A program made the position numbers and the translations under genes. This document shows, piece after piece, positions 5,906 through 53,017 of a stretch of DNA of 64,000 nucleotides. The notes under the pieces are model-generated. The model worked only from the letters and a program-made list of their open reading frames with translations. It had not been told where the DNA came from and searched no databases. The stretch covers positions 1 to 64,000 of the forward strand of contig JBDKVB010000138.1 of the NCBI GenBank assembly GCA_039679385.1, in the 5' to 3' direction. The DNA is from Armatimonadia bacterium. Its GTDB lineage: Bacteria; Armatimonadota; Zipacnadia; Zipacnadales; JABUFB01. Each line of letters opens with the position of its first letter. Position 1 is the first letter of the stretch.

Positions 5906-6424
5906 ATGGTGAGCATGGTACGGCTAACCGATTCCTACGCCAACTGGTCTCGGCGGCACCGAGGGAAGCGGGCCTGCGGCAGCGTTGCAGTCGAGTTCGC
6001 TATCGTCGCTCCGATGCTGATCATCTTCATGTTCGGGGCGATCGAGTTCGGGCTCATCTTCAAGGACATGCTCACCCTCAACCAGGCGGCACGCGAGGCC
6101 TCGCGAACCGCCGCAGTGGGCAAGTCTACCAGCGAGATCGTTGCGAAGATGACGGCGGCAGGGGCGACCCTCCGAACCGCAGACATCACTTACTACCTGG
6201 AGCGCGGGGTCTACAACGGCAGCACGGGCGCGTGGACCTACACAACTCTGGGGGATACCGCGACGACACCGGTTCGCAACGACGCCTTGTCGGGTGACCA
6301 GGTGCGGGTGCGTCTCGAGTATCCCCACCGACTGGTAACTGGGGGCCTGTTCTCCCGCCTCGCCAACGCGCAGAACGGAACTGCTATCAGACTCCGCGGC
6401 ACGATGGTCATGAGGCGTGAGTAA
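5906..6424 (+). CDS. tadE: TadE-like pseudopilin
   Basis: A 172-residue TadE-family protein starting at ATG 5906 or 5915, behind GGGCAGGGG. GSVAVEFAIVAPMLIIFMFG at about residues 25-44 is the TadE processing and transmembrane motif, with the Glu that guides prepilin peptidase. EFGLIFKDMLTLNQAAREASR follows, typical of the family. The remainder is a soluble domain exposed outside the inner membrane. TadE proteins are minor pseudopilins needed for Tad pilus assembly. No TadF or TadG homologue is seen in this cluster. Confidence 0.85.
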   Translation: MVSMVRLTDSYANWSRRHRGKRACGSVAVEFAIVAPMLIIFMFGAIEFGLIFKDMLTLNQAAREASRTAAVGKSTSEIVAKMTAAGATLRTADITYYLERGVYNGSTGAWTYTTLGDTATTPVRNDALSGDQVRVRLEYPHRLVTGGLFSRLANAQNGTAIRLRGTMVMRRE

Positions 6425-6482
6425 GCAGCGCTACCGGGCCAGGCACCTTGACTCCTTGCGGCTTCGACCGGGGATGTGTTCC

Positions 6483-6509
6483 TTGACAACCGAGACGTTG
6501 GGCTATCAT
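6483..6509 (+). promoter_or_regulatory. Candidate promoter inside the Tad locus
   Basis: A perfect TTGACA at 6483-6488 and TATCAT at 6504-6509 are 15 bp apart; reading the -35 as CTTGAC gives 16 bp. Spacing is short but both hexamers are good. It points into the non-coding segment that ends at the terminator at 6912, giving a transcript of about 395 nt. Confidence 0.45.
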
Positions 6510-6515
6510 CGGCTG

Positions 6516-6912
6516 AAGCCAGTGCTTACCGCGAGTTCCCGAAATCCTTGGGGGGGTTAGGGACTCGCAGATAGTCGGCCCCACGGCGACATGGCGCAGG
6601 GCGTTGCGTAGGGCACCGATCACTTGCCTGCTAGAACGCGATCCGGGTAAGGTTGCCGGGCGCAGACCTCCCGGGGAGAACCAGCAACCGGGAAAGGTCC
6701 AGACCGGCACGGGTGCCCCGGAGGTGTTCAGGCGTCGTGAAGTCGTCGCTGCGGATTCGTGTGGGATGCCGCCGACCTTGAGGACAGGATAGCAACTACA
6801 GAACTGAGAGCTCGTGTACCTTGAGCCTTGTCTCCCCCCCACCCAGGGGCGCCGCGCTGTATGTTCACCCGCTGCGGCGTGGCGCCCCACCTTTTCACGG
6901 TGGGGCTTTTTT
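6516..6912 (+). ncRNA. Candidate structured RNA or leader of unknown class
   Basis: The 629 bp between tadE and cpaB hold no plausible gene. They do contain a promoter at 6483, several nested hairpins and an intrinsic terminator at 6884-6912. GGTTGC (6651-6656) pairs with GCAACC near 6684 around an inner CCGGG/CCCGG stem. GGCA(CGGG)TGCC follows near 6716. CGCGAG (6530-6535) can close with CTCGTG (6811-6816). I checked by eye for RNase P RNA, tmRNA, SRP RNA, cobalamin, c-di-GMP-I, TPP and SAM riboswitch motifs and found no convincing match. It could be a small RNA, a riboswitch or just the tadE 3' region. Confidence 0.4.
6884..6912 (+). terminator. Intrinsic terminator with competing upstream hairpin
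   Basis: GCCCCACC (6884-6891) and GGTGGGGC (6899-6906) form a perfect 8-bp stem with a TTTTCAC loop and six T's at 6907-6912. Immediately upstream, GGGGCGCC at 6846-6853 pairs with GGCGCCCC at 6881-6888. That stem extends through mostly paired bases to 6860/6874, about 15 bp with four G-U pairs. It shares bases 6884-6888 with the terminator, so the two structures are mutually exclusive. Confidence 0.85.
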
Positions 6913-6956
6913 GTGAGTGGCGAGTGTCAAGGTCGGCAAAAAAGTGCTCGATACAC

Positions 6957-6987
6957 TTGCGTCCTGTCCCTATACCTGTGCTATACT
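6957..6987 (+). promoter_or_regulatory. Extended -10 promoter for the cpaB-tadC operon
   Basis: TATACT at 6982-6987 is preceded by TGC, an extended -10 (TGnTATACT). TTGCGT at 6957-6962 is a weak -35 with 19-bp spacing, which an extended -10 tolerates. Start of transcription would be near 6994, leaving about 60 nt before cpaB. It lies just after the terminator, so the two halves of the Tad locus can be transcribed separately. Confidence 0.55.
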
Positions 6988-7053
6988 GCGCACCACTAGT
7001 AGTCGCAACAGCAATAGATGCGGTTTTCAACGCAGCAAAGAGGGTGACAACCC

Positions 7054-8145
<1,092 letters not shown>

Positions 8146-8242
8146 TAGCACTGAACTCGCACTAGTCCGGGTGGGCGCGTCCCCCTTTACGCGCCCTTAC
8201 CCTCTTTCGCAGCCTTGATCGCATCCTGGGGAGGATACCACC

Positions 8243-11200: not shown

Positions 11201-11515
11201 GGCAAGTCGGTGAAGCTGGAGGTCGAGCCGGAGGTCAGCTCCGTGGACACCTCCACCCAGGTCAGCATCGGCGGTATCGCCGTTCCCGCTTTCCGCACAC
11301 GACGCGCCAAGACCACCTTGGATATGCCGGACGGCGCGACACTGGTCATCGGTGGCCTGATCCAGCAGGACCAGAGCAAGGTTGTAAGGGCGATCCCCTT
11401 CCTGAGCAAACTGCCGATCCTGGGAGAGTTCTTCAAGAGCACCGATACGCAGCAACGTCGCAATGAACTGGTGATCCTGGTCACGCCAGAGATACTACAA
11501 CCAAGCAAGCCCTGA
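8243..11515 (+). CDS. cpaC: Giant CpaC/RcpA-type Tad secretin with tandem BON-like modules
   Basis: A 1090-residue protein against about 450-600 for ordinary CpaC/RcpA. ATG 8243 follows GGGGAGGATACC. A signal segment (about residues 17-38) leads into the N-terminal RcpA domain (about 40-108: VLKQGDARILKFNKMTRVWV). Residues about 111-854 consist of about eleven repeats of roughly 68 residues, each resembling a BON domain (helix, Y-x-x-x-x-D-x-x-x-LVEGE strand, helix, VxNLV strand). The last 230 residues are the secretin pore domain, with VVAHVKVVDITQGGSKKLGIDWG, ARILAEPNLVVNDGEEAEILVGGEVPIPV in two adjoining parts, and the VIGGLIQ...IPFLSKLPILGEFF signature. It forms the outer-membrane channel of the pilus. 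Confidence 0.93.
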   Translation: MKRWPRHSHQPPTPGLRPLLMAVGMACLFCFVLENCFASDALVLKQGDARILKFNKMTRVWVTDPSIIDVVVAGYNELLVYSKTVGYTKLYVWDAQGRHEYAVETKRLPTADQVLREISSYLGRGLRYNIVDDKTVFIDGEVESTAERDRVAQVVEATSNGLKVVNLVRVRDANLTAAESYRRGFEKLFPGQFTYTAIDDQTLVLEGEVATTAEKQRLTAILTAASGIKTVDLVRCLENQLTPQQQRIESIKQAVGDVYRYQALEDKILVISGEAASEAELKRIDKIATAAAGDLTVINAVMLASDTRSPAARYAEVLKATLGSQYKLTPMGDTGLVVEGAAQTSADEARVRQIVDLLKGSVQVVNLVSAGGAQTAGQKTQAMLKEALGDRYQVSLLTNDVVLVDGLAATTAEKDRVDKLVAAVPADTKVVNCVAIGEPGHDNRAAARYAEALRTVLGGNLTYRVLDDNTLMVEGEAISAADKAKTDSVLKALSGGVNVLNLVTVKPGLEVVGDSAAARKARVVQQVLGDKYKASVVDEKTVLVQGVAPGEAEQQRLEGVLRQIAGDVTIVSMIDAGVGASTLTPAQRAIQSLKAVVPAEVKLVELDAKTVLVEGIVPTTIEKDRMDKIAEMTAKSSQVNVVSLVLTQMQSKTPAARRIEGLKKILGDKYNYIVWDDETVLVDGQVDSQQELDRVTKILEAADKDWKVGNLVTYGAAGAGTTTPEASAAVVERLSKAIGEPYRVWHLKSSKYVVEGVSTDQVAANRLQEILKAFTDEGEILNLTTLAETPTVSLTARAEALRTVLGDDFQVKTLQGRAVVVEATVPTKVAAERARSIMSAMGSDVPIVDLVTVVDPAKRQVVAHVKVVDITQGGSKKLGIDWGNIVAGSQEGTVSFGDQPFLFNLNDGAHKVGDVGANLNALRQNDQARILAEPNLVVNDGEEAEILVGGEVPIPVPQTGQGGSAITIEYKQYGVVLRIKPQIMADGKSVKLEVEPEVSSVDTSTQVSIGGIAVPAFRTRRAKTTLDMPDGATLVIGGLIQQDQSKVVRAIPFLSKLPILGEFFKSTDTQQRRNELVILVTPEILQPSKP
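8573..10804 (+). repeat. About eleven tandem BON-like modules in the secretin
   Basis: Each module is close to 204 bp. Recurrent landmarks are AARYAEVLKATLG-type helices, a DDxTVLVxGE-type strand (DDKTVFIDGE, DDQTLVLEGE, DDNTLMVEGE, DEKTVLVQGV, DAKTVLVEGI, DDETVLVDGQ), a TAEKDRV-type helix and a closing VVNLV strand. The copies have diverged, so duplication is not recent, except that modules with DDxTVLV strands remain clearly alike. Confidence 0.85.
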
Positions 11516-11576
11516 GCGGGTCCCACAGGACCGCTTCACCCTCCCGCCCCGGGCTCAGACAAAGGAGTCGGCAACC

Positions 11577-12734
11577 TTGATCCGGTTAGTGATCACGGAA
11601 GCAAGCCCTGGGGCGGCTGAGGGTGTGCGTGGACGGTTGGCGAGCAACGAGTTGGAGATCATCGGGTACGCACGCGACGGCCTTGAGGCCGCGCAGATGG
11701 CCCTTCAGCTCAAGCCCGATGTGCTCTTGGTCCATGAGGACCTCCCCGGCGTCGACGGCTACAAGGTCTCTGGCCTGGTGAACGCCGCCACCGCCGACGT
11801 TGCTGTCGTACTCCTCGCCAATCGCGAGAACGAGGCCACACTCCGGCGCGCCATGGCCGCAGGCATCCGTGCCGTCGTCTCAGTGGACGCTCCAGCCGAC
11901 AGACTCCTGGAGGTTCTGCGAGAGGTCGGCGGGATGAACAGCGTCCGTGAGGAGCCGGAGTTCCCGCTCGTTACTGACCCCAACCTGATGCCTCGCAGCA
12001 TCGCCGTGACCGGGGCCAAGGGCGGAGTGGGCAAGACCACCTGTGCGGTGAACCTGGCGGTGCTGTTTGCCAAGCGGTTCCCCAACGAGGTGGCTCTCGT
12101 GGATTTCCACGGGCAGTTCGGCGATGCTGCTCTTGCTCTCGACATCGCAGCTCACGAGACGATCGCCGACCTGGCCTCCTTTGACGAGCTCGACCCCGAT
12201 CTCGTCGAGACCCACCTCAGCATCCATCAGGCCTCCTCTCTGCGTCTGCTCGCAAGCCCTGATGTTCTTCGCGGCTCCGACATGGACATGAGCCGCCTGA
12301 ACATCCCCTTCATGGCCGAGCTGATCGGCCTGCTCCGGCGATCCTACCGTTACGTCTTCTTTGATCTGCCTCCGCTTGTCTGGCCGGCGAGTCAGTACGT
12401 GTTCTCGCGCTGCCAGCAGGTGTTGGTCGTCACCAACCTCTTCGACCTCGCAGCGATTCGCGACACCAAGGCACTGCTGGAGCTGATCACCGCTGTGATG
12501 GGCGACGAGTCACGCATCAAGGTCGTGGCCAACCGGTCGCCGTGGCGAGGTGACTTCAAGCTCGATGACCTCCAGACCACGGCCGGGCGGAAGGTCTTCT
12601 TTGAGCTACCCGACGACTTGGAGACCGCGACGGGAGCCCTGAACGCAGGGGTGCCGGCGGTGCTCGAGAGCCCGAACTCCGCCCTTGCACGCGCACTGAA
12701 CACCTTGGCTGACCGGCTGGCCGGCGAGCTCTAG
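11577..12734 (+). CDS. tadZ: Tad pilus localisation ATPase TadZ/CpaE
   Basis: A 385-residue protein starting at TTG 11577, well placed behind AAAGGAG. Residues 1-118 are a receiver-like domain, but the phosphoacceptor position in VLLVHEDLPGVDG is His rather than Asp, so it is a pseudo-receiver as in other CpaE proteins. Residues about 137-375 are a MinD/ParA-type ATPase with a deviant Walker A, GAKGGVGKTT, and a following VALVDFHGQFGD. TadZ marks the membrane site where the Tad machine assembles. It lies 61 bp after cpaC and 87 bp before tadA. Confidence 0.9.
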   Translation: MIRLVITEASPGAAEGVRGRLASNELEIIGYARDGLEAAQMALQLKPDVLLVHEDLPGVDGYKVSGLVNAATADVAVVLLANRENEATLRRAMAAGIRAVVSVDAPADRLLEVLREVGGMNSVREEPEFPLVTDPNLMPRSIAVTGAKGGVGKTTCAVNLAVLFAKRFPNEVALVDFHGQFGDAALALDIAAHETIADLASFDELDPDLVETHLSIHQASSLRLLASPDVLRGSDMDMSRLNIPFMAELIGLLRRSYRYVFFDLPPLVWPASQYVFSRCQQVLVVTNLFDLAAIRDTKALLELITAVMGDESRIKVVANRSPWRGDFKLDDLQTTAGRKVFFELPDDLETATGALNAGVPAVLESPNSALARALNTLADRLAGEL

Positions 12735-12821
12735 CCCCAGGGACGTTGGGGGGCGCAAAGGGTCTGGGCACACACCGGGGGACGGCCCTTACGATAGCCG
12801 CCGTAGGAGGAAGGAACACGA

Positions 12822-40282: not shown

Positions 40283-43200
40283 TCAGAACTCGAAGGTCTC
40301 GGCGTATACGAGACGCGGCGTCGTCGGCTGTGCCGGGACGGCAACCACGGCCAGGGGTATCCCGCCGGGCCGATCGATCTCGTAGACCTCGTACTCCTTC
40401 AGCGCCAGGCGGAAGGCCTGGGTCCCACGGTCAGCCGGGAGGGTCATGCGCCCTGTCCAGGTCCAGCGGCGGCTTCCATCAGCAGGGCGCTGAGCAGAGA
40501 GTTGGATGGGATCGCCGGCTACCGGCCGCCAACGCAGGTCACCAGTCAGGTTTGCGCTGGCGGTCTCCAACGAGACCTCCATGCGGCTGCTGCCGCTTAC
40601 CCTGGCACTGCCGATGTAGCTGACGCCCGTGACCGAGATCGCGATCGTGCGGTTGTCGAGGTAGGTCATCGTCGCGATGCGCTCGGGCAGCAGTTGCACA
40701 AAGTCGGCCAGCACCACGCGGGAGAGCTTGACGTCCATGCCGTCGTGCTGGACGGACTTCGGCTGGTAACGCGCGAGGGCGAGGCGCACGAAGGGGAAGT
40801 ACGACTGCCCCGGATCGAGCTCGATGTCGCTGTACCACAACTGGCGCTGCGGATCATAGAGCACTTCGTGGCCGACCACTGCCACGCGCAGGTCACGGCG
40901 CATCCGCATCAGGCTGTCGGGCCCCTGGGTGAGCTCATCGAGGGTTAGGTCGCCCTCCCAGGCCAGCTTGTGAGTGAAGGCCTCAGGACCCGGCCAGGCT
41001 GGTGTCGCAGTCGTTCGCCAGGTCGGGTCGGCACCCATCTGCGTCACGAGGGACTTGAGCACCGGCATCCAGCCATAGGTGTCCTTGTGCATCACGTCTA
41101 CTCCGGCCGCTCGTGGCCACGGGATGACGACGCCGAGTTGCTCGCCCTCACCTGAGGAGAACCACGGGCGCTCCAGGTAGACGCGCATCCCGCCACTGGT
41201 GCGGCGACTCATCTGTCCGTTCGGCAGGGCCTGTCGCTCCCAGCCGAAGGTGGGGATGACGTACATGAGCTTGGGAGCCGCCGGGCGCGCCGAACTGGGC
41301 ACCTCGACTGTCACCTGTTGTGAGACACGAGTGATCGGCGTCTTGCCGCTCCTGATGTCGGCCTCGCTGAGGTTGAAGCAGCTCTTGTGCCGGGTCGTGG
41401 TGATCGCGGTGTAGCGCACCTTGCGGTACTTGGTGTCGCCAAACTCATGCCGTCGCGGGATGCCTGCCGGGAGCACCTGCAGGAGACCCGGGTCGAAAAG
41501 ACGCGATCGGGCCACATCCTTGCGCAGGGCCTGGTTGCTCAGATTGCGCGTGAGCCCGGTCCTGGCCTCGGGGCGTGCAGCGAGTGAGGCGGCCGATACC
41601 CTCCCTGCCGTGCCGGTGCGCAGTACCATCGGTGTCGCGGCACCGATCGGCACCGACTGGGCGGCTGGCGCCGTGGGCTGTATGGGCTGTATGGGCTGGG
41701 TTGGCTGCAGCCGTACCGGTGGACGGCCGGGCAGGGGCTGCACCGTTGCCGCAGGTGGCTGCACAGCAGTGGGTGTTGGTCTGATGGCCCCTGCAACGGC
41801 GCCTATCAAGGCCGGGTTGACCTCCATGATCTTGGCGACCGGCTGGGCGATGAGCGCGTACTTGTCACTCGTCTCGACGCCGATCTCCCACACGTGCGAA
41901 CTGCCGGTCACGCCCTGCCATTGTGGCCAGGCAAGGTCATCGACCGGGTCGGTCCAGTCCGCATGGACATCCACCTTGACCGCGCTCTTGCCGTCCAGGG
42001 CCACGCGGCCGTAGAAGGAAGCATAGGTGTCGCCGAAGTCGCGGGCGACGGTGAGGTACTGGATCTGCGGCACACCAAGAGGCTGCTGCACCGCGTGAAG
42101 CACCGTGATTGGGTGCGCAGGGGTGAGCAGCACGTTGCGCCCCTCGGTAGCAATCCGCCCAAGATCCGCGAGGCGGCGGGTCAGGTTCGCGTCGAGGCCT
42201 GCCCGGGGAGCCGCCAGGCTGAGCTGGCGCGGATCGGCAAGCTGGAAGCGTAGTCGCTGCCTATCAAGGGGAGCGGCCTGAAGAGCGGCAAGCTTCGGGA
42301 TCGTCAGGTTGTCCATCGACATCCGCCAGACCGCCATGTTCCCGACTGCCTGGGCCGGCAGGCTGCAGCTCACACTGATCTCGGCGGTCTCTGCCTTCGG
42401 TAGCGGCAGGCGCAGCGTCCGACTGGCTGCATCGAACTCGGGCACGGCTCCCGCCGCTGCGGGCTCATACACGTCCAGTCGGAAGGGCTCGATGTCCGGC
42501 CAAGTACCGGTGAAGGGAACCTGGAGCGCGTACTCCTTCGCCGGGTCTGCCGACAGCGGGAACTTGATCCGCACGAGGGCCAGGGTCGCCAGAGGATCGG
42601 GCAGATAGGGCATCGGCATCCGGTCGGCATCGTAGAACTTGGCCAGCGGCTTGTCGTGGTCGATGAGCATCTGGAAGGTCTGTGGATCGCCCTTCATTCC
42701 GGCGTCGGTGTCGAGCATGCCGTGCATCTCCGACATCAACTCCGAGGTCTTGGGCGGTGCGATATGCCGTGCCGACACCTCCGTCGTGCGTGCGGCGTCC
42801 CGGGCCTGTGCCTGGGATGCATCGGTCGGGAGGAAGGCACCCGGTACGCCGCCGGGGGCCGCTGGACCAGCCTGGTTCATCGAGCGAAGCACCACGTGAT
42901 CGACGGTCTCGCCCTTGGCGTTGCTGAGGTCCTTGCGGGCTACGATCACCGGAGCGTTCACCGGCTCATGGCGGGAGAACACCAGAGGCTCCGAGGCCGA
43001 TCCGGCCGCTGTCGAGGTCCAGGGGATACCATTCCCGGCGAGGTCCACCAGGCGAGCACGAAGTCGGTACTGGCGACCGAAACGCAGCCTGGGCAGGCTG
43101 CCGGGCTTCGCGACGAACTCGGTGTCGAGCCCATATTCGGTCGTGTCACCCGGTGTGACGCCGGGCTCCGCGAGCGGTTTGTCCGGCCTTGGCGCAGATA

Positions 43201-44839
43201 GGCTCCAGCCCTCCCACCGGACGAAGATCTCGTGCAGGCTCATGGACTTCGAGCCGTCCGCAGCACCGCGCGCACCCGAGCTGATCCACCCCTCGTCTTC
43301 CACGCCGGCGATCATCCGGTCGACGCCCTTCGCGGCGTTCGCGAAGTGGTACGTCCCGATGCGCCGGCACAGCGAGTGCCACTGGCTCGACTTGTCGTCC
43401 CACACGTCAACCCGCCAGCCGCGCACCAGGTCTTCGGCCCACAGTTCCATCTGGGCATCTTCCGTCGCGCTCGTGGCGATGGGCGCGACCGGTCCGGCGC
43501 TGCGCAAGGCGGGCGCCGCTGCGAATCGGCTCTCGAGGGCCTTCACGACTTCATTGCGAGCGGTGGCCGTCGGCAGAATCTGGGTCGCCAGTTGGATGGC
43601 CCGGTTCACCCTCGCCACCCAGATCCCGGCTGTGCGAAGGGGCGGAGGAGTCGTCTCAGCCGCAGGCGGTGTTGGAATCGGCGCCCCTACCTGCAATGCA
43701 GCGGCCGCCATGGCTACCCATTGCGTGACCTTGCCGGCGTAGTCGATGGCGCGAAGGGCAGCGGCATCCACATCCATCTGCCCGATCTCGAACAGCCCGG
43801 GATCGTTGAGGCGAAGCATCCCGTCCTCAATGTCGCTGCCTTCGGCCGGAGTCTGCCGGGGACGGGCAACGAAAGAGTTCGCAGCAACCGTGCAACGGGT
43901 CCGCGGAGTGACGTTCGCCGTCGCGAAGTCCGAAGTCCAGGAGGGCACCACTCGCACGGCCGTCGCAGCGGTCATCCCCGCCTGAAGCGGAACCTCCAGC
44001 TCAATCACCAGACCAAGTCGGCGCATCACCTCGGGATACTGGCCGAGGTGGGTGAGGATCTCATGGAAGTCGGGCGTCGGCGCCCTGATCGCCATGAGGT
44101 TCGGCGAGAGCTTGCCCACCTTGCGCTCGACAGGCTCATGAAACATCGCTACCTGGTGGAAGGCCAGGGCGGACGGTGTGACGGTTGTCCGAAAGGCGTT
44201 TGTGCGGGCGACGAAGGCACTCGTGGCCGGACGCGCTGTGCCTCCCATGAGCGCCCTTCGTGGAGTCGTCGCCGGCGGCTCGGTGTACAGAGCCTTGAAC
44301 TGCAAGCTCTGCATCTGCCGGCCTAGGCCGCTGGTCAGCTCCTGCTGCTGGGTCTTCGGCAGCACCAGGTTCTTGAGAAGGTCGCTCGTAGGTCCCAGTC
44401 CCGGCTGCGTGGGCCCGAAGTCCGGCGGCCGGTCGGGAGACACCACGGCGACTGTCTCGTAGACCGCCCGGACGTCCTCCTGGATGTTCTGGACCGGGAA
44501 GGAGTTGATGACGCGGCCGGTGTAGTCCGGGAAGACATAGGTCTTCAGCCGCGTCTGCTCATGGAAGATCGCCTTCCAGAGGTCAGCGGGTGGTGGGTCA
44601 CCCGCGGGAGCCACCCGGGTCGCAGCCACCGTCGGGCCGCCATCGAACTTGACCTGAAAAGTGGCCGCTGCCATCTTGTCGGGCCAGTGCAGGAAGTCTG
44701 GGAACTGCTGCAGCGTCGGATTGCTCCCTCCCTCGTTGGTCTGCAGGCGAGGGGAGACAAACACAGACAACTGGAGCCGCGCACCATCCTGGGTGATGCC
44801 CTTCGGTACTGCGGTCCAGATGATCGTCTGCTTCTTCAT
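40283..44839 (-). CDS. Giant uncharacterised protein B (1518 aa)
   Basis: I do not recognise this protein. ATG 44839 follows AGGAGG by six bases. It has no signal peptide, membrane helix or nucleotide-binding motif. The N-terminus (MKKQTIIWTAVPKGI then LQLSVFVSPRLQTN) is beta-rich, and the whole protein alternates beta-rich stretches with Pro/Ala-rich linkers, for example near residues 1040-1100 (IRPTPTAVQPPAATVQPLPG). Near residues 590-640 there is FVRWEGWSLSAPRPDKP followed by RLRFGRQYRLRARLVDLAGN, reminiscent of fibronectin-like folds. The end (RWTWTGRMTLPADRG, FRLALKEYEVYE) is also beta. It is the second gene of a two-gene operon, 72 bp after giant A. A structural or surface role is only a guess. 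Confidence 0.85.
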   Translation of the reverse strand: MKKQTIIWTAVPKGITQDGARLQLSVFVSPRLQTNEGGSNPTLQQFPDFLHWPDKMAAATFQVKFDGGPTVAATRVAPAGDPPPADLWKAIFHEQTRLKTYVFPDYTGRVINSFPVQNIQEDVRAVYETVAVVSPDRPPDFGPTQPGLGPTSDLLKNLVLPKTQQQELTSGLGRQMQSLQFKALYTEPPATTPRRALMGGTARPATSAFVARTNAFRTTVTPSALAFHQVAMFHEPVERKVGKLSPNLMAIRAPTPDFHEILTHLGQYPEVMRRLGLVIELEVPLQAGMTAATAVRVVPSWTSDFATANVTPRTRCTVAANSFVARPRQTPAEGSDIEDGMLRLNDPGLFEIGQMDVDAAALRAIDYAGKVTQWVAMAAAALQVGAPIPTPPAAETTPPPLRTAGIWVARVNRAIQLATQILPTATARNEVVKALESRFAAAPALRSAGPVAPIATSATEDAQMELWAEDLVRGWRVDVWDDKSSQWHSLCRRIGTYHFANAAKGVDRMIAGVEDEGWISSGARGAADGSKSMSLHEIFVRWEGWSLSAPRPDKPLAEPGVTPGDTTEYGLDTEFVAKPGSLPRLRFGRQYRLRARLVDLAGNGIPWTSTAAGSASEPLVFSRHEPVNAPVIVARKDLSNAKGETVDHVVLRSMNQAGPAAPGGVPGAFLPTDASQAQARDAARTTEVSARHIAPPKTSELMSEMHGMLDTDAGMKGDPQTFQMLIDHDKPLAKFYDADRMPMPYLPDPLATLALVRIKFPLSADPAKEYALQVPFTGTWPDIEPFRLDVYEPAAAGAVPEFDAASRTLRLPLPKAETAEISVSCSLPAQAVGNMAVWRMSMDNLTIPKLAALQAAPLDRQRLRFQLADPRQLSLAAPRAGLDANLTRRLADLGRIATEGRNVLLTPAHPITVLHAVQQPLGVPQIQYLTVARDFGDTYASFYGRVALDGKSAVKVDVHADWTDPVDDLAWPQWQGVTGSSHVWEIGVETSDKYALIAQPVAKIMEVNPALIGAVAGAIRPTPTAVQPPAATVQPLPGRPPVRLQPTQPIQPIQPTAPAAQSVPIGAATPMVLRTGTAGRVSAASLAARPEARTGLTRNLSNQALRKDVARSRLFDPGLLQVLPAGIPRRHEFGDTKYRKVRYTAITTTRHKSCFNLSEADIRSGKTPITRVSQQVTVEVPSSARPAAPKLMYVIPTFGWERQALPNGQMSRRTSGGMRVYLERPWFSSGEGEQLGVVIPWPRAAGVDVMHKDTYGWMPVLKSLVTQMGADPTWRTTATPAWPGPEAFTHKLAWEGDLTLDELTQGPDSLMRMRRDLRVAVVGHEVLYDPQRQLWYSDIELDPGQSYFPFVRLALARYQPKSVQHDGMDVKLSRVVLADFVQLLPERIATMTYLDNRTIAISVTGVSYIGSARVSGSSRMEVSLETASANLTGDLRWRPVAGDPIQLSAQRPADGSRRWTWTGRMTLPADRGTQAFRLALKEYEVYEIDRPGGIPLAVVAVPAQPTTPRLVYAETFEF

Positions 44840-44911
44840 GGCGAGCCTCCTGTCCAGAGCGCTCAGATAGATAACGGCGGGCACTGCATCGGTCTCGGCC
44901 GGTCGAGTCGG

Positions 44912-47900
44912 CTAGGCGAAGGCGGCGCAGTAGGTTGCCCAGGTCTGGGGCTCCAGAACGTCGCTGAGCGTCGCTCGCGGCAGACTGACCGCCCGGGGCC
45001 GGGTAGCCCGCAGCCCGCGCAGATCATCCGCCGCCGCCAACTTCGCGCCGTCCCACAGCATGGCGGTCTCTGAGGAGCCTGCGAACTGCCGCTCGACTGT
45101 GAGGGTGACGCCGAAGCTGAAGAACAGGATTTCGATCTCCACCTCGAGACTGGCAGTACCGTAAAGGCGGTTGCCATCCGACTCGTAGGTCATCCCCAGG
45201 TAGAACTCGGCCGAGATCGTGATGAGGCCCAGGACCGACAGGCTTCCGCCGCAGCGCACGTAAGCGGTGAGGCTGATCGAGTCGACATACTTGAAGTAGA
45301 TGCCCGCCATGAGATGGATGCCGCCACTGGCGACGCCGATGTCCATCGCCATGTTGCCGCCGAACTCAAAGGCGGCCTCGATCAGCTTGATGTCATCGGG
45401 CACGACTTCAATGCCGAAGAAACCGCCGCCGCCGAAGATCCCGACCGAGATGATGAAGGGGTCGGCCTTCTCCGAGAAGTTGAAGCGCAAGGTGACGGGA
45501 TCGTTGAGGTAGGAGAGTGTGAGCGCCGCTCCCAGGCGGATGTTCTCGATGCTCATCACGCCGCAGCCGATGCTGGGAAGCGTGATGCTGAAGGCCGCCG
45601 TGATACTCGTCGGCTGCGGATCGATGCTGAGCCCGCCGAGGTCGCCGCTCTTGAGCACTTCCTTCAGCTCATTGACGAAGGTCAGTGCTCCGCCGAACTC
45701 CACGCCCTCCAGGTCCACCTCCACATCCGGCTGCATCCCGGTGCGAGCGGAGAACCGTGCCAGCTTGAAGTTGGCGATGAGCAGGTCGAACAGGTTCAGC
45801 GCGAAGGTCTCGAGCTTCGCCTCGGCCTCAAACAGAGGTGGCTGAGCCTGTGGTCCGGGAAGCAGCGGCGTCTCGGCTCGCGCATTGAAGGTGAACTTGG
45901 CCGCCCCACCACGGTCCTCGAAGGGACCGGCGCTGCTCACCTTGGGGCTCCAGTTGTACTTGGCGATGAGCCGTTCCGGGATGCCCAGCGAGTTCTTCTG
46001 CGTCTCGGTGGTCAGTCCGGGCACCTGTGCAAGCCCAAGGCCCTTCATGATGATGCTAACCAGATCGACGCAGCCAAACAGCTTCGGGAACATCCCGCTG
46101 AAGAAGTCCGACGGGTCGAACTGCCCGCCGGCGACGTTCGACAGCGCACCACCGAGAGGACCGAAGGAACGCGAGAGACCGTTGATGAGGACGTCCGGGG
46201 AGAGCATCCCGCCGGACTTGTCCGTGGGGAACATGAGACCCTGGTTGGCCGCCTTACCCAAGTCGTCGACGAGCTTGAGGAATACCTCACCGGCGTTCTT
46301 GGCGGCGTCCCAGGCGTTGTTCACGTATGCCGAGTCCAGCGCCACCCACACCGGTACGTCCTGGCCGATCATGTTGGTGATCGCCGGTACTCGAACCAGA
46401 GCCTGAGCCACGGTCGGGTAGAACTGTGGCTGGTCCTGGAGCTCGAAGGCAACGCCGAGTTGCTGGGCGACCGAGGGCCTGACAGGTGCCGGAACCGAGT
46501 TGAGGATCGTCGCGCACTGGGTCGGTGCCTCAGCGCCGAAGCGGATCGTCGTTGTCTCGAAGCTGGTGTCGTCCTTCCCGGCGGTGCCTTCCGCCAGGGC
46601 CACGGACTGGCCTGCGATGTCACGGTTCCGTAGGGCGACGGGAACCTCTTTGTTGTAGTAGTTGCAGGCCGCCGCCATCTTGCTGTAGTCGAAGGAGATC
46701 GTGGACTCGATGAACATGAGCGGACAGGTGAACTCGATGGTGTTGCCCTCGGAGTCCTCGCCGACCATGTGGAACTCGAATTCCTTGCCGTTGACCTTGG
46801 GCCAGAACGCCTCCTGGGCGGTGTTGCTGATGTTGCCCGCCTTGCAGGCGGCCGGGTCGTCGAGAGTCGGGGTCACCAGCGTCTTGATCCGCACCTTGCG
46901 CAGGGACATCTGGCGTCCGTCGTTGAGCTGCCAGAAGGCGGGGTAGTCCTTCTCGGGCTGGCGGACGACGATGAAGTAGCGCTGGCGCAGGTACGCCACC
47001 GAGCCGTCGCGCGTGTCCTCGAACTTGCGCTCGGTGACCTTCACAAGGGCCGCCATGTTGCCGAAGGGGAACAGGTAGCCCTTGTAGACGACCTTCACGT
47101 ACTGGTCGCGGCCCATTGTGGCCTGGTGGACCCACTCGATCAGGGAGATGCTGATGCCGATCGGCTTGGGCGCCCCGTAGTGAACATCCAGCCAGGCGCC
47201 CAGGGAGCTGAGCATGACCCGGTTGGCCTCGATCACGCGCTCCCGGGCATCCGTGATCTTCTGGAAGTCCGAGGTGAGCGTGACCAGGTCTGAGCGATCC
47301 CGCTTGTCCAGCGACATGCGGAAGGGCTGCGGTGTGTTAGGCCGATCGGGAGAGGGGTCGGACCAGTCAGGTGACCAGATCGCGCGGAGCGTTCGGTAGT
47401 ACCCGGCCGGGTCTGGGACCGAGGCCACCTCCACGACCTGCAAGACACCGTTTCTGACCTCGTAGGCATACTGCCGGTCCCAGATGCGGTTCGGGCCGGA
47501 TCTCACACCCAGCCGAGTATGCCATAGCTCCGTACGAGTGCCCCGCGTGACCGGCTGAAGAGCATGTACCCAACCGGCGCCGGAGTGCGGCGACAGGATG
47601 AGCCGGTAGGGCGCCTCGATGGCGGTATGGAGTGTCGGGTCTGGCGCCGCTGGACGAGGTGGCGCAGAGGGTAGCATGACCACCCCGGTCGCAACAGGTG
47701 CGATGTAGTCGGTGCCGGGTTTGACCCACTCGACGCGCTTCGTTGGAATGTCCGCGGCCGTGCGGGTAGTCGCTGTGACCGGCGTCGCCCTCACCAGATC
47801 GGGGCGCATGCGGATTGTGCCGGTTGCAGGAGCGGCTCCGGTGGCCGGAGCGACGGCACCTGGGGGCAGAGCGCGTGTGGCCGGTCCGCCGGTCGTTGGT

Positions 47901-49933
47901 GTCCGCGGGACTCCAGTGGCTGGTAGGGCACCGGCCGGCAGGAAGGGACGCAGTTGGCTTCCCTGCAGGGCCCCGGGGCGGATGGCCACTGCGCGTATCG
48001 GTGGCGGCAGCGCATTCGGCGCCACCGAGAGCTCCATCTGCGTCCAGTCGAGAAGCGCCTCCAGAGTGTAGGGGATCTGCTGCGTACTCGCCGGGAGCTT
48101 GAACACCAGTCGCGAGGCGCCACTGAGGCGTGTCTGGACTGGGCTATTCACACCGGGGAGAGTGCTGACCCCGTCGTTGTCGGGCTTCCCGGCGATCTCC
48201 GGGGCCTTCTCCAGGATGGCCTCCTCACCCACATGCTGGGGCGGGAACTGGACGACGAGGTAGGCGGCTTCGTTGGGCTTGGACCGCTGCAGAACCGCCG
48301 GCTTCCCGGCCTCGGTCTTGAGAACGAGGTTGGCGAAGCGGAAGGTCAGCGACAGCAGGTCTGCGGTTCGCGTGACCTGTACCGTGAAGGGTTCGAGGTT
48401 CAGCAGACCGGCCAGGCGGTCAGGCGAGATCTGGATACGAGTGGCGTCCGGGGTGATCCGCGTTGGCGGCGTGATCGTTCCGGGAGTGGCCGCACCCGGA
48501 GTGACCGTCGTTGCACCGGTCGCAGGGGTCGTCACAGGCGGAACGCGTACCCCGGGCCGTAGGGTCGGCTTGGGGAGCGGCTTGGGCTGCTCCTCCACAG
48601 GGGCCGGTTTGAGGACGGGTGTGTTCTGCGCGAGCCGGTCTCCGTCAGTGATGAGTTCCACCCGGGTGTCGGCCAGGGCTCGTGCAGGTGAGACCAGCGC
48701 TCCGGCCAGGGGAGCAGCCATTCCCAGCAGCGCCGGTACGCAGTGGCTGACAAGCGTCTTGCCCGCACGGGCGAAGACTTCGAAGGCCGAGGCATCCGAG
48801 GGCGAGCCGACCTGGATCGATAGGTCTCCGGCCTGCACCCACACCGGCTCCTCGGCAAACCCCGCCATCAGCGCCTTCTCGCCGTGGCCATCGTCGAAGG
48901 CCACGGCATAGCGAGGGTGCGCCAGTGGCAGCCGGGCAGCACCGCCGTCGGCACCAGTGAGCCCACGCGGGACGAAGGCCAGCCGCGGGTCACCGTCCTT
49001 CGCGAGCGCTACCAAGGCTTGCTGCACCCGTGAGGGGTCAAGCTCCGCGAACTCAAGCCGCACCACATCGAAGGGTTCGCCCTGAGCCTGGATCTCACCG
49101 CCTGTGGGGTCGGGAGCGGTGCTGTGCAGCGTCCACTTCCGCTCCCCGCGCTCGAGGCAGACCAGACACCTGGGGCCTTGAGGCGATTCCAGCAGGCTCG
49201 GCTCCTGGGTCGCCAGCAAGCTGAGCACCACCGCCTCGGCCCCGAGGCTCCCGGCATCCCGAACCGCCGGTGCCGTGAGATCGAGCCGCGCGACGGATGT
49301 GCCGGTGAGCCGCAGCGTCCAGTCGGGGCGGAACTCCGCCTCGGCAGCACTCTCCACCCGCAGTCGGCCGACGTCACCCAGTTGCGCCGACACCGCTCGA
49401 CCATGCAGGTGCCCACGAGCGGCCTCAGACCCGCTGAGCCAGCGCTCGAAGGGAACTTCCGCCCGGAAGCCTCCCAGCGAGGTCTGCACCTTCATGGTCC
49501 AGCCCGTTAGGCCTCGGGACAGCTCGCAGGTGAAGTCGGCAGGCAACTCGGTGCCGGGGAAACGAGCCCCGCTCAAGGCCAGGTGCACCGTCTCTCCCGT
49601 GCGCTCGAAGTGCAGCTTCGGCGCACCGGCGAAGCGCCGCGTGTCGATCACCCAGCGTTCCTGGCCGCCCAGCCGGAAGACGACGCGGTGCCGGTCGGCC
49701 GAGTACTCCACCGGACCGGCCATGCGTCCGCTCAGAGCTCGTGAGAGCGGTGAGGCGGCTACGGCCGCGGTGCCGGCGAGTCCCAGCATATGACGACGGG
49801 ACATCGGCACGTCCAGACCCGCAGTGGCGATCTCACCAAGAGTAGGCGCCGTCTGCAGGGGACGTGGCAGCAGGTTCTCACGAAGAGCTGCCACCTTGAG
49901 CAGGGAACGGCCTTCAGAGTTGTCAGCCGCCAT
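44912..49933 (-). CDS. Giant uncharacterised protein A with Tat-like motif (1673 aa)
   Basis: Not recognised. ATG 49933 has AGGAGG seven bases upstream. After a 43-residue polar lead, MSRRHMLGLAGTAAVAASPL (residues 44-63) looks like a twin-arginine signal, so the protein is probably exported folded. Pro/Thr-rich linkers lie near residues 445-510 and 680-760. The middle (about 780-1270) holds VTERKFEDTRDGSVAYLRQR and EFTCPLMFIESTISFDYSKM. The last 350 residues are glycine-punctuated beta strands (FIISVGIFGGGGFFGIEVVP, LTAYVRCGGSLSVLGLITIS, LEVEIEILFFSFGVTLTVER), like a beta-barrel or beta-solenoid. It precedes giant B in one operon and is divergent from the RING/JAMM/FHA genes. Confidence 0.85.
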   Translation of the reverse strand: MAADNSEGRSLLKVAALRENLLPRPLQTAPTLGEIATAGLDVPMSRRHMLGLAGTAAVAASPLSRALSGRMAGPVEYSADRHRVVFRLGGQERWVIDTRRFAGAPKLHFERTGETVHLALSGARFPGTELPADFTCELSRGLTGWTMKVQTSLGGFRAEVPFERWLSGSEAARGHLHGRAVSAQLGDVGRLRVESAAEAEFRPDWTLRLTGTSVARLDLTAPAVRDAGSLGAEAVVLSLLATQEPSLLESPQGPRCLVCLERGERKWTLHSTAPDPTGGEIQAQGEPFDVVRLEFAELDPSRVQQALVALAKDGDPRLAFVPRGLTGADGGAARLPLAHPRYAVAFDDGHGEKALMAGFAEEPVWVQAGDLSIQVGSPSDASAFEVFARAGKTLVSHCVPALLGMAAPLAGALVSPARALADTRVELITDGDRLAQNTPVLKPAPVEEQPKPLPKPTLRPGVRVPPVTTPATGATTVTPGAATPGTITPPTRITPDATRIQISPDRLAGLLNLEPFTVQVTRTADLLSLTFRFANLVLKTEAGKPAVLQRSKPNEAAYLVVQFPPQHVGEEAILEKAPEIAGKPDNDGVSTLPGVNSPVQTRLSGASRLVFKLPASTQQIPYTLEALLDWTQMELSVAPNALPPPIRAVAIRPGALQGSQLRPFLPAGALPATGVPRTPTTGGPATRALPPGAVAPATGAAPATGTIRMRPDLVRATPVTATTRTAADIPTKRVEWVKPGTDYIAPVATGVVMLPSAPPRPAAPDPTLHTAIEAPYRLILSPHSGAGWVHALQPVTRGTRTELWHTRLGVRSGPNRIWDRQYAYEVRNGVLQVVEVASVPDPAGYYRTLRAIWSPDWSDPSPDRPNTPQPFRMSLDKRDRSDLVTLTSDFQKITDARERVIEANRVMLSSLGAWLDVHYGAPKPIGISISLIEWVHQATMGRDQYVKVVYKGYLFPFGNMAALVKVTERKFEDTRDGSVAYLRQRYFIVVRQPEKDYPAFWQLNDGRQMSLRKVRIKTLVTPTLDDPAACKAGNISNTAQEAFWPKVNGKEFEFHMVGEDSEGNTIEFTCPLMFIESTISFDYSKMAAACNYYNKEVPVALRNRDIAGQSVALAEGTAGKDDTSFETTTIRFGAEAPTQCATILNSVPAPVRPSVAQQLGVAFELQDQPQFYPTVAQALVRVPAITNMIGQDVPVWVALDSAYVNNAWDAAKNAGEVFLKLVDDLGKAANQGLMFPTDKSGGMLSPDVLINGLSRSFGPLGGALSNVAGGQFDPSDFFSGMFPKLFGCVDLVSIIMKGLGLAQVPGLTTETQKNSLGIPERLIAKYNWSPKVSSAGPFEDRGGAAKFTFNARAETPLLPGPQAQPPLFEAEAKLETFALNLFDLLIANFKLARFSARTGMQPDVEVDLEGVEFGGALTFVNELKEVLKSGDLGGLSIDPQPTSITAAFSITLPSIGCGVMSIENIRLGAALTLSYLNDPVTLRFNFSEKADPFIISVGIFGGGGFFGIEVVPDDIKLIEAAFEFGGNMAMDIGVASGGIHLMAGIYFKYVDSISLTAYVRCGGSLSVLGLITISAEFYLGMTYESDGNRLYGTASLEVEIEILFFSFGVTLTVERQFAGSSETAMLWDGAKLAAADDLRGLRATRPRAVSLPRATLSDVLEPQTWATYCAAFA

Positions 49934-50237
49934 TGCCTTGCCTCCTGATGCCCGACGAGGTGACACTCCTACCGGCGCCCCAGAGGGTCGCCGGGACTCG
50001 TCCAGGCAAGAGACTTATCACTCATAGCAGGCAGAATAGTGGGCTATTCGCGTTGTCGGTATGGCTTCCTTCCTGTGCCTCCGACATTTTTACCAGCAGC
50101 GCAGCAGTAACACGACGCCCTGGAGTACTCGGCGAAGGCGATGGCGATTCGTGTATCTGGTCGCTTGAAGCGGCGTCTTCACGTCGGTAGACGGCAGCGC
50201 CCTTGACAGGTGCGCCGACACACCGCAAACTAGACCC
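49934..50237. other. Divergent intergenic region between giant and RING operons
   Basis: This 304-bp non-coding stretch must hold start signals for both operons. Visible are AGGAGG for giant A at its left end, a short inverted repeat GAATAG/CTATTC (50034-50039 and 50044-50049, TGGG loop) in the only AT-richer patch, and the promoter at 50203-50231 on the plus strand. I cannot name a confident minus-strand promoter. Confidence 0.5.
50203..50231 (+). promoter_or_regulatory. Promoter placed for a leaderless mRNA
   Basis: A perfect TTGACA (50203-50208) is followed after 17 bp by CAAACT (50226-50231), which keeps the key A at position 2 and T at position 6 of a -10. The expected start falls at about 50237-50239, on the ATG at 50238. 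There is no ribosome site between, which fits leaderless translation. Confidence 0.5.
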
Positions 50238-50963
50238 ATGCGCTGCCCGTACTGCAGACATGATATCCGTGTGGCCGGACGCTTCTGCCCCCGCTGTGGA
50301 CGGCAGATCTTCGGCCTACCGGCTACGCCCGAACCTCCGGTGACGCCTCGACCGCTGGCGCCGACGACGCCTCCCTGGGCAGTGCCGACCTTGCAGCAGC
50401 CTGCTGAGCCGCCGATTGAGCCTTCCGGCCCACATACCGTTGGCAAGACCTGCCCCTTTGACCAGTACCCGATCTCCGTGGGCGAGCAGGTCATCGTCTG
50501 CCCGGAGTGCGGCGTACCCCACCATGCTGATTGCTGGCGGGAGAACGACGGCTGCACAACCTATGGGTGTGCACGGTCGCCGCAGGCACGCACGGCTGCG
50601 GCCCAGTCGGCGGAACAGGGAACGATGCCGCCTGGACCCTTTCCGGGCTACCCCGGCAGGCCGCCCAGACCGTCATCATCCTCTCCGACGGGGTCACCAA
50701 TCGCCCTGATGGTCGCTGAGTTGGAGCGCAGTGCAACGAACGCCCTGCTCTGGAGCATCCTGGGTGTCTTCTGCTGCGGTGCTCCGTCGCTGGTCGGCTT
50801 CTTCATGGCCGTGAGTGTCTTCGGAACGATGACCCGCATCGGTATCGACAGCCCCAGCGTAAAGATGAAGGCCACCTGGGCGCTCATCGTGGGTGCTGCC
50901 ATCCCCATCGCGTGGGCTGCGCTGTGGATCTCCGGCACTGCTGGTTCGGGATCCCTCCACTAG
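50238..50963 (+). CDS. Zinc-ribbon / prokaryotic RING-like membrane protein
   Basis: A 241-residue protein. Residues 3-20 are a zinc ribbon (CPYC...CPRC). After a Pro-rich linker, residues 72-111 form a RING-like treble clef: C72, C88, C91, H95/H96, C99, C106 and C111 in CPECGVPHHADCWRENDGC, matching the Prok-RING_1 pattern. Two hydrophobic segments (about 167-195 and 211-232) place the C-terminus in the membrane. Prokaryotic RING domains occur with ubiquitin-like or membrane signalling systems; the JAMM peptidase gene is 14 bp downstream. Whether it acts as an E3-like ligase or only binds protein is unknown. Confidence 0.82.
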   Translation: MRCPYCRHDIRVAGRFCPRCGRQIFGLPATPEPPVTPRPLAPTTPPWAVPTLQQPAEPPIEPSGPHTVGKTCPFDQYPISVGEQVIVCPECGVPHHADCWRENDGCTTYGCARSPQARTAAAQSAEQGTMPPGPFPGYPGRPPRPSSSSPTGSPIALMVAELERSATNALLWSILGVFCCGAPSLVGFFMAVSVFGTMTRIGIDSPSVKMKATWALIVGAAIPIAWAALWISGTAGSGSLH

Positions 50964-50977
50964 TAGCGAGTGCTCTC

Positions 50978-51640
50978 ATGGTTCAGGTCCCCGACGACGA
51001 TCTCTCGATTGAGCTGACGCCCTTGGCGGCTGCTGCTCCCCTGTGGCGTCCGCGTCCCGGCCTTGGTGAGGAAGCGGCACAGGTTGTCGGCGTCAGCGCG
51101 CCCGGTGAGCTTGCGGTCTATCTGAGTCTGCGCTCCATCGAGGCCATGTTTGTCTTCGCCCAGCAGTTCCCCAACCTTGAGACCGGCGGGCTTCTCGTCG
51201 GCCAGCCTTGCGAGGACTCTCGGGGTGAGTACCTCAAGGTCGTTGACGCCATCGCGGCGCATCATGCGGTCGGCACGAGCACCAGTCTGACCTTCACCCA
51301 GGAAGCCTGGAACGGAATGCTCACGACCGCGGAGGAGCTCTATCCCGATGCGTCCGTCGTCGGCTGGTACCATACCCATCCGGGGCTCAAAGTGTTCCTG
51401 TCCGGCCCGGACCAGTTCATCCACCACAGCTTCTTCCACGGTCCTCGGGACATCGCCGTGGTCCTGGATTTGCAGGGGAGCGAATGGGCGGTGTTCGGCT
51501 GGTGTGGCGAGCAGTTACGGATGCTGCAAGGGTTCTGGGTCTATGCCGAGGAAACGCCGGATACCTTGCGCCTGCCGGCGGTCCTGAATCACCTGCGTGG
51601 GCGTCCGGCCAGTCAGGCTGCGGGAGGAGCCGACCGATAG
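50978..51640 (+). CDS. JAMM/MPN+ metallopeptidase (deubiquitinase-like)
   Basis: A 220-residue protein from ATG 50978. The zinc protease motif is complete: E68 in ETGGLLVG, H132 and H134 in YHTHPGLKVFLSGPDQF, S142 and D145, fitting H-x-H-x7-S-x2-D. Bacterial JAMM enzymes cleave isopeptide or C-terminal bonds of ubiquitin-like or sulfur-carrier proteins, or process cysteine conjugates. No signal peptide is present. The N-terminal 40 residues are a low-complexity lead. It is flanked by a RING-like gene (14 bp) and an FHA-like gene (132 bp), suggesting a protein-modification or signalling unit rather than sulfur transfer. Confidence 0.9.
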   Translation: MVQVPDDDLSIELTPLAAAAPLWRPRPGLGEEAAQVVGVSAPGELAVYLSLRSIEAMFVFAQQFPNLETGGLLVGQPCEDSRGEYLKVVDAIAAHHAVGTSTSLTFTQEAWNGMLTTAEELYPDASVVGWYHTHPGLKVFLSGPDQFIHHSFFHGPRDIAVVLDLQGSEWAVFGWCGEQLRMLQGFWVYAEETPDTLRLPAVLNHLRGRPASQAAGGADR

Positions 51641-51772
51641 GCCTGCTGGACGGCAGTGAGGGGAACCACTGACTGCGCCGGTACCGTTGAGACTTACAAG
51701 GATGCCTTGAGCGGCAAAGCAGCGCTGCCCTGACGGCCTGACGGGCAAGCACACGACTGACTGCGAACACCC

Positions 51773-53017
51773 ATGGACACCCCTGACGCCGCACCCAACA
51801 ATCTGCCCGAGGACGACAGCGACGGCGAGCTCGAGATCGAGCTCCAGCCTCCAACTGCGCCTGCTCAGCCGCCGGGCGAAGACACAGATGCGCTCCCTCC
51901 TGCGCCGGCGCAGGAGGACGTGCTGGTCATCGACACCGAGGACCTGGCCGACCTTGACGATCAGCCCTTCCCGGCGGCGGAGGCCGGGTACTTCCCACCC
52001 GTGGATACGTCGCCGATGGGGATGTGGGCGGCGAAAAAGAAGGTCAAGCCGGGCCTGTTGTCGGGCGGCCTCGTCGGCTCCATGATGCTGCAGATGATCA
52101 TCGCGGGTGCCGTGGGCGCCTTCCTGGCCTGGCTGATGGTTGAGCCCGGGCTCCGCTACAGTGAGTTGCACCGGGGCTTCGAGAGTCCTGGCCTGGGGGC
52201 GATGCTGGCCAACGTCACCTTCTTCGGGGCGGCCCTGGGCGGAATGATCGGCATGGCTCTGGGCGCGGTGGAGGGGCTGGTGGTCTCGGCCTGGGGACGC
52301 GCAGCCACTGGAGCGGCCCTGGGGCTGCTGATCGGCGGCGTCGGCGGAGCCCTTGGTGGCCTGGCCGGTCAGGCGATCTTCTCGATGCTTCTCAGCGGCG
52401 TCGGGCACAGTCCGGGCGCCGGCACCATGTTTCGCGTTGTCCTTGCGCGGGCCCTCGGCTGGGCTCTGGTTGGCGCCTGTGTTGGCCTTGGCCCGGGCGT
52501 GATGATGATGGTGCCCCGCAAGATACTCAATGGGCTGATTGGCGGGGCAGCCGGTGGTTTCCTCGGTGGCCTGCTCTTCGATCCGCTCGGGGCCGTTCTG
52601 ATGGCCAGTGGCAGCTTCGTCGGCACGCCCTCGCGCTTTGTGGGCATCCTCGTGATGGGTATGGCCACCGGCGCAGGGATCGGTCTGGTCGAGGAGATCC
52701 GCAAGGAGGCCTGGCTGCTGATCGTTGGTGGACCCTTGACCGGCAAGCAGTTCATCCTCTACAAGCCGGTCACCTGGATCGGCAGCGCTCCGGGCATGGA
52801 CCTTCCGCTGCTCAAGGACCGCACCCTGGCGCCCAAGCATTGCTCACTGGAGCAGGTAGGCGGCGGTCACGTCTTGCGCGATCTCTCCGGCGGTCGCACC
52901 GCGGTCAACGGCATGCCACCGACGGACCGGAGGCTCGTGGCTGGTGACGTCCTGCAACTGGGTAGCACTATGCTACAGTACCAGACGCGTCCCTTCGCCT
53001 CCGGCCCCTTGAGCTGA
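51773..53017 (+). CDS. Polytopic membrane protein with C-terminal FHA-like domain
   Basis: A 414-residue protein from ATG 51773; an in-frame TGA at 51758 excludes an earlier start, and no ribosome site is seen. Residues 1-85 are acidic and Pro-rich. Residues about 95-305 hold several glycine-rich transmembrane helices (GAALGGMIGMALGAVEGLVV, GGVGGALGGLAGQAIFSMLL). Residues about 310-405 look like an FHA domain: VTWIGSAPGMDLPL, LAPKHCSLEQ and RTAVNGMPP. The phosphothreonine-binding Arg (normally IGR) is Ser and the usual Ser before K/RH is absent, so phosphopeptide binding may be lost. It ends 6 bp from a convergent gene. Confidence 0.8.
   Translation: MDTPDAAPNNLPEDDSDGELEIELQPPTAPAQPPGEDTDALPPAPAQEDVLVIDTEDLADLDDQPFPAAEAGYFPPVDTSPMGMWAAKKKVKPGLLSGGLVGSMMLQMIIAGAVGAFLAWLMVEPGLRYSELHRGFESPGLGAMLANVTFFGAALGGMIGMALGAVEGLVVSAWGRAATGAALGLLIGGVGGALGGLAGQAIFSMLLSGVGHSPGAGTMFRVVLARALGWALVGACVGLGPGVMMMVPRKILNGLIGGAAGGFLGGLLFDPLGAVLMASGSFVGTPSRFVGILVMGMATGAGIGLVEEIRKEAWLLIVGGPLTGKQFILYKPVTWIGSAPGMDLPLLKDRTLAPKHCSLEQVGGGHVLRDLSGGRTAVNGMPPTDRRLVAGDVLQLGSTMLQYQTRPFASGPLS

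Follow-up and report, generated by a model that had tools for sequence, protein, structure and literature searches.

A membrane RING-JAMM-FHA gene triplet in an Armatimonadia bacterium as part of a predicted ubiquitin-like conjugation system

Bacterial ubiquitin systems with a RING protein were reportedly predicted in 2011 by Burroughs, Iyer and Aravind. They are said to combine an activating enzyme (E1), a conjugating enzyme (E2), a RING protein, a JAB peptidase and a YukD-like ubiquitin-like protein (UBL) that is conjugated, and to have related operons in Planctomycetes, Actinobacteria and Acidobacteria. The subject here is a group of three adjacent genes of an Armatimonadia bacterium (assembly GCA_039679385.1), encoding a RING membrane protein, a JAMM metalloprotease and a polytopic FHA-like membrane protein. 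These genes lie in a window of 64,000 nucleotides, which is positions 1 to 64,000 of contig JBDKVB010000138.1 (C138). The triplet very probably belongs to a UBL conjugation system that works by an E1-E2-RING cascade, with other genes lying on C51, a second contig of this genome (G000, the own genome below). This reading is carried by the observed gene and domain content, the intact catalytic residues, a conserved operon, co-occurrence and a shared motif.

The 2011 work is cited in PMC4197634 and PMC11354881. Iyer 2006 covers bacterial E1/E2/JAB/UBL operons, and treats YukD with the ESAT-6 export system (PMC1779556).

The system is a variant of the kind already predicted in 2011. Five parts of that kind are present: a UBL with a conserved C-terminal Gly, an E1 and an E2 with HPN and Cys, these three on C51, as well as a RING and a JAB protein. 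It differs in its occurrence in Armatimonadota, its two loci, its three JAMMs (one with LysM), its HtrA-like protease, its polytopic FHA-like protein and a terminal motif that resembles the SUMO-interacting motif (SIM). We know of no earlier description of the two-locus split, of three JAMMs with LysM or of a motif common to the components; the motif seems to be the novelty.

Other described systems are less close. The ubiquitin-E1-E2-RING-Rpn11 operon of Caldiarchaeum subterraneum (PMC5654768, PMC6043591) covers the same five functions, and the UBL studied here has CsUbiquitin as its best fold match, while the window JAMM (J3) resembles Rpn11. The present system is however bacterial, with a membrane-anchored RING and extra membrane or periplasmic parts, and its genome has only one proteasome-family gene, next to HslU. 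BilABCD (Bub) shares UBL, E1, E2 and JAMM, but is a four-gene system with a two-domain ISG15-like UBL and no RING (PMC11354881); the PADLOC models for Bil match only the E1 and one JAMM (J2) here, weakly. Cap2/Cap3 of the cyclic oligonucleotide-based antiphage signalling system (CBASS; PMC10097602) shares E1, E2 and JAB activities. Here E1 and E2 are separate, there is a dedicated UBL and a RING, and no cGAS-like gene was recognised in the system loci. YukD and EccD of the type VII secretion system (T7SS) are of the same UBL family, but here the enzymes of a covalent cascade are present and the genome has no WXG100 match (PF06013, with a positive B. subtilis control).

A search of the literature returned mainly reviews and unrelated papers, and no report of a reconstituted bacterial RING-type UBL cascade. 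What is added here is the full set of parts for Armatimonadota and relatives, in which a RING-JAMM-FHA triplet that looked like an orphan makes up the second half of a system. LysM, the HtrA-like protease and several membrane proteins tie this system to the envelope, and the shared short motif makes specific binding tests possible.

The triplet and its partner genes

The three open reading frames (ORFs) are real, run in the same direction and are closely spaced. The flanking genes on both sides are on the opposite strand, encoding a 1684-aa protein without a Pfam match and a DUF6259 protein, and the triplet is isolated within the window. An initial annotation, made from the letters and ORFs of the window, had named a RING-like, a JAMM and an FHA-like protein. 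The ORFs and Pfam bear this out: Prok-RING_1, JAB and Yop-YscD_cpl/FHA are all matched, and the JAMM has its catalytic residues intact.

The RING gene (50238..50963, + strand) encodes 241 aa: an N-terminal zinc ribbon (C3/C6/C17/C20), a Prok-RING_1 domain and C-terminal transmembrane helices, seen as two or three hydrophobic segments. From Pfam, alignment, AlphaFold2 and Foldseek it is a predicted membrane ligase (E3). Prok-RING_1 (PF14446) is matched over residues 68-114 (50439..50579, + strand) with E=1.2e-9 and 38.4 bits, where the cut-off is 29.1. The ligands are in C4HC3 order, with Asp75 replacing the second Cys; C4HC3 is the arrangement given for prokaryotic RINGs (PMC11354881). The ligand positions (72/75/88/91/96/99/106/111) are kept in 22 homologues. 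At the second of these, 19 have C and 3 have D, namely the window protein and two others.

The initial annotation made its case depend on the Cys/His cluster being a treble clef. AlphaFold2 models this cluster as a RING, with a predicted local distance difference test (pLDDT) score of about 93-97 over residues 61-110. The 15 best Foldseek matches of the model are all eukaryotic RING-domain E3 structures (RNF38, RNF12, RNF13 and others), mostly with probabilities of 0.8-0.98 and with weak E-values (0.14 and above).

J3 (50978..51640, + strand) has 220 aa when read from the ATG at 50978, which was judged the best start; the ORF finder gave a GTG at 50912. It matches JAB (PF01398) with E=3.7e-8, and its nearest solved relatives are Rpn11 and CSN5. 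The Glu, HxH, Ser and Asp that mark JAMMs of the Rpn11/CSN5 type are all present (E68, H132, H134, S142, D145), and this active site is invariant across all three JAMM groups of the system.

The FHA-like protein (51773..53017, + strand; 414 aa) has several hydrophobic Gly-rich segments and a C-terminal degenerate FHA domain at aa about 317-402, which Pfam matches as Yop-YscD_cpl (4.2e-9) and FHA (6.7e-6). The Arg and Ser of the classical phosphothreonine pocket are replaced in the window protein (IGS, APKH), and most homologues have Ser for Arg. "FHA-like" is therefore the apt term. A role as phosphothreonine reader was considered and rejected, as it calls for this conserved Arg and Ser.

With J3 as query, 61 genomes were searched, and C51 of the own genome proved to have two more JAMM genes. 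In order, the genes there (locus L031) encode an HtrA-like membrane protease (7296-8276), a YukD-like UBL ending in PEITAG (8297-8566; YukD 9e-17), an E1 (8625-9827; ThiF PF00899 4e-56), J1, which is a JAMM with a transmembrane segment and LysM (9840-10853; JAB+LysM), the JAMM J2 (10831-11559; JAB) and an E2 (11636-12187; UQ_con 8e-10). In the E2, H87-P88-N89 and the catalytic C95 are invariant in 20 aligned homologues, and a PDB search with its profile returns eukaryotic E2s (5e-8). The modelled UBL matches the folds of Caldiarchaeum ubiquitin, NEDD8, SUMO and ubiquitin, and its PEITAG end is nearly invariant, across phyla. The UBLs of seven other loci (L111, L113, L117, L137, L151, L156, L161) continue for 3-6 residues beyond PEITAG, implying processing.

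In tetranucleotide composition, the 40-60 kb part of the window is matched best by C51 among the stretches compared (0.76). Contamination as the cause of the split was rejected: the composition of C51 and C138 agrees, both sites are contig-internal (in contigs of 48 and 143 kb), and same-family homologues rank first.

In relatives such as L083 and L113, these genes form one complete and contiguous nine-gene operon, protease-UBL-E1-J1-J2-E2-RING-J3-FHA, which in the own genome is split. The order is kept in Armatimonadota-type loci. E2 and RING are adjacent 20 times in 26 named loci of this type, and a J3-type JAMM follows the RING in all 13 named Armatimonadota-type loci where it was found. 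The idea that such JAMMs might never sit beside RING or FHA genes thus does not hold, and the neighbourhood survey that the initial annotation proposed places RING, JAMM and FHA with UBL/E1/E2 in a single operon.

Across the 61 genomes, RING and E2 are both present in 27, E2 alone in 1, RING alone in 0 and neither in 33 (Fisher p=2e-16, with genomes counted as independent and shared ancestry uncorrected). For UBL and E2 the counts are 23 with both, 5 with E2 only, 0 with UBL only and 33 with neither; the five may reflect fragmented assemblies. A link between RING and protease is independently seen in another phylum, where one Planctomycetota protein (L135:4006-5334) fuses RING and trypsin-like domains.

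Because the UBL, E1 and E2 are on C51, because relatives have all of these genes in one operon, and because the RING occurs only with E2, the triplet is very probably the membrane-anchored E3 and deconjugation half of a UBL system split over two loci. The initial annotation had seen no E1, E2 or UBL nearby, which is true of the window but not of the genome, and it had allowed for partners elsewhere, which is supported. Its other suggestion, a minimal membrane-located processing system, finds no support in view of the full UBL/E1/E2 set on C51 and its contiguity with RING-JAMM-FHA in relatives.

A short motif shared by the components

An acidic-flanked h-x-h-x-h motif, similar to SIM, is found at the termini or in linkers of the E1, E2, RING, JAMM, FHA and protease proteins. 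It is located at the N-terminus of E1, JAMM and FHA proteins, at the C-terminus of E2 (often twice), in the RING linker and in the C-terminal tail of the protease. Examples are DVEIELL and DLDIELC in E2 tails, SDIDITLH in protease tails, ILDIDLEED at the start of E1, ELEIEL at the start of J2, VLDISL in FHA proteins and GDVLDIELED in RING linkers.

In the window, J3 has DDDLSIEL (50993..51016, + strand; aa 6-13). The FHA-like protein has EDDSDGELEIEL (51809..51844, + strand; aa 13-24) and a second such stretch, EDVLVIDTEDL (51914..51946, + strand; aa 48-58), which in homologues reads for example DILVIEADDL or MLVIETDDL. The window RING protein has no such motif, unlike most of its homologues.

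For counting, the x positions are acidic and at least 3 acidic residues are around the motif, while expectations (in brackets) come from shuffled termini. This definition was tuned on these families after examples had been seen, its significance is descriptive, and the counts describe rather than test: 23/23 for the E2 C-terminus (2.4), 21/26 for the E1 N-terminus (3.9), 8/9 for FHA (1.1), 13/19 for J2 (1.2), 4/12 for J3 (0.5), 4/26 for J1 (1.7) and 9/16 for the protease tail (0.6), the last rising to 17/19 by a looser expression. About 15 of 24 RING proteins have the motif in their first 120 residues. Other ORFs of the same loci have it in 13/275 and 9/275 cases (8.6 and 7.3). It is found in 0/20 UBLs, and in 0/7 of the auxiliary E2 (E2b) proteins of some loci.

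The motif recurs in unrelated folds and in tails that are otherwise variable. The UBL lacks it throughout and would therefore be its natural partner. That almost every component except the tag has the motif suggests, from sequence, that all of them dock on the tag.

The UBL itself has a position that varies with the motif. In helix 1, at I-I-x-[KR]-L, the residue is basic in 17/17 of the loci where the E2 has a motif tail, and Leu or Val in the 10/10 without it (27 loci; the 17 consist of 16 by regular expression plus L165, whose tail IDIEFL escaped that expression). This tracking coincides with the division that sets the Armatimonadota-like clade apart, and may be one event.

A tentative model, which we hold to be somewhat less than an even bet, is that the motif is a bacterial counterpart of SIM. 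Its strand would add to the UBL beside helix 1, without a covalent bond, and so hold the cascade together. The UBL would then be a tag and also a multivalent scaffold on which the machine assembles at the membrane. If so, the motif would act as a signature for substrates and receptors, and eukaryotic SUMO would not be the only ubiquitin-like tag that is recognised through a motif. An AlphaFold2 model of the protease tail tethered to the UBL by in-frame read-through (L107, TAA read as Q) folds the UBL itself, but leaves the motif disordered, with a pLDDT of about 53 and no strand, from 28 sequences and with a short tether, and so gives docking no support.

The 5.6 Mb of the own genome were also scanned with DNA patterns. 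The C-terminal motif pattern matches twice, once in the protease gene; the other match, whose frame runs antiparallel to a HEAT-repeat gene, was judged spurious. A second C-terminal-type pattern finds the protease only. The acidic motif pattern has one match, EEEEIEIEVEE, inside HslU (L175, G000:C94), adjoining HslV. Separately, a single-transmembrane protein near a HEAT-repeat protein (L174:2222-2896, - strand; G000:C140) starts with ...DDEELDIEIQ..., and could be a client or chance.

Proposed mechanism and alternatives

In the proposed mechanism, the ThiF-type E1 would adenylate the UBL, with its invariant PEITAG end, and hand it to Cys95, the catalytic residue of the UBC-fold E2. At the cytoplasmic membrane, on its inner face, the window RING protein would keep hold of this E2~UBL and promote transfer to target proteins there. 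J1, J2 and J3 would be isopeptidases that mature UBLs with a C-terminal extension, and strip UBL from targets. Effectors or scaffold on the envelope side are the likely roles of the polytopic FHA-like protein and of the HtrA-like membrane protease. The protease, its tail presumably cytosolic, and the LysM-bearing JAMM would connect cytosolic tagging to the periplasm. With these as envelope-side parts, the most likely job is therefore quality control of envelope or membrane proteins, although this assignment, drawn from the parts, is a tentative one.

Several points weigh against this picture. We infer activity, topology, targets and biological role, the system being known here from genes and models. 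Its halves are physically separate (C51 and C138), the window RING has Asp at one ligand-Cys position, the E1 is related to MoeB/ThiF adenylyltransferases, and the RING/E2 p-value is uncorrected for phylogeny. Homologues of the polytopic FHA protein also occur in genomes without E2, as part of a broader family, and the tie of this protein to the system is therefore weaker.

Bacterial UBL-type conjugation studied to date acts in defence (PMC10097602; Bil in PMC11354881), and the CBASS E1-E2, BilD, BilC and JAB models are distant relatives of the E1 and JAMMs. Like BilABCD or Cap2/Cap3, the system might then tag proteins of the phage or the host. This is rather unlikely: with 26 bits for BilD and 19 bits for BilC the PADLOC matches are both weak and partial, no PADLOC model matches the UBL, E2, RING or FHA, different families of one order keep the same gene order, and LysM, the HtrA-like protease and FHA, the additional parts, are of envelope type. 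An assignment to defence was rejected on PADLOC/NCBIfam matches that stay below family level. In the own genome the proteasome family is represented by one gene, which immediately precedes HslU and is probably HslV. Since this HslV-like gene is alone and WXG100 is absent, it is unlikely that a 20S proteasome degrades tagged proteins or that the system has a T7SS role. A non-covalent T7SS-type module, with the UBL as a secretion subunit that E1/E2/RING do not conjugate, would fit the YukD match, a weak EccD match and the ESX-5 subunits among the fold matches. Besides the missing WXG100, the near-invariance across phyla of the E2 HPN/Cys and the UBL PEITAG and the three JAMMs with intact active sites speak for conjugation instead, and make such a module quite improbable.

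The isolation of the triplet between opposite-strand genes, and the FHA homologue elsewhere without E2, might suggest a protein-processing unit at the membrane that is independent of any UBL. The co-occurrence of RING and JAMM with E2/UBL across genomes, and their shared operon in relatives, largely refute this and leave it highly improbable. Lastly, the best NCBIfam matches of the E1 are ThiF/MoeB, below cut-offs, which could point to a sulfur-carrier pathway with the UBL as a ThiS/MoaD-like thiocarboxylate donor. The UBL is however YukD/ubiquitin-like and not ThiS/MoaD, we know of no role for E2 and RING in sulfur transfer, and the chance of such a pathway is close to nil.

Other loci and other genes of the window

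The closest named systems are in Armatimonadota, class Zipacnadia/WS1. More distant ones are in Planctomycetota, Sumerlaeota, Riflebacteria, Verrucomicrobiota, Fibrobacter and Bacillota, and Ignavibacteria have E2+JAMM pairs. In several other phyla, protease-type matches are directly upstream of the E2. The E2s of L135:5334-6221, L137, L146, L151 and L161 carry a C-terminal Cys/His-rich (zinc-finger-like) extension, and not the acidic tail motif. Between UBL and E1, one relative has a channel-like membrane protein and another a PepSY protein (L032:2784-3653, G001; L082:9411-10577). Locus L036 (G047:C32) has an E2b upstream of the protease, plus a protein that combines two RINGs with two MshEN domains (6814-7335 and 11628-12794).

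Away from both halves, the own genome also has three adjacent Prok-RING proteins (L067, G000:C157:28000-42000, at 5037-6784, - strand), two above the Pfam cut-off and one below. Similar tandem sets are in G001 (L068) and G002 (L070). These are possibly extra E3s.

The window has two giant adjacent proteins of 1533 and 1684 aa (40283-49966, - strand) without a Pfam match, the second with a twin-arginine-like N-terminus. At 8243-11515 there is a secretin with BON and pilus N-terminal domains, in a Tad-type pilus region.

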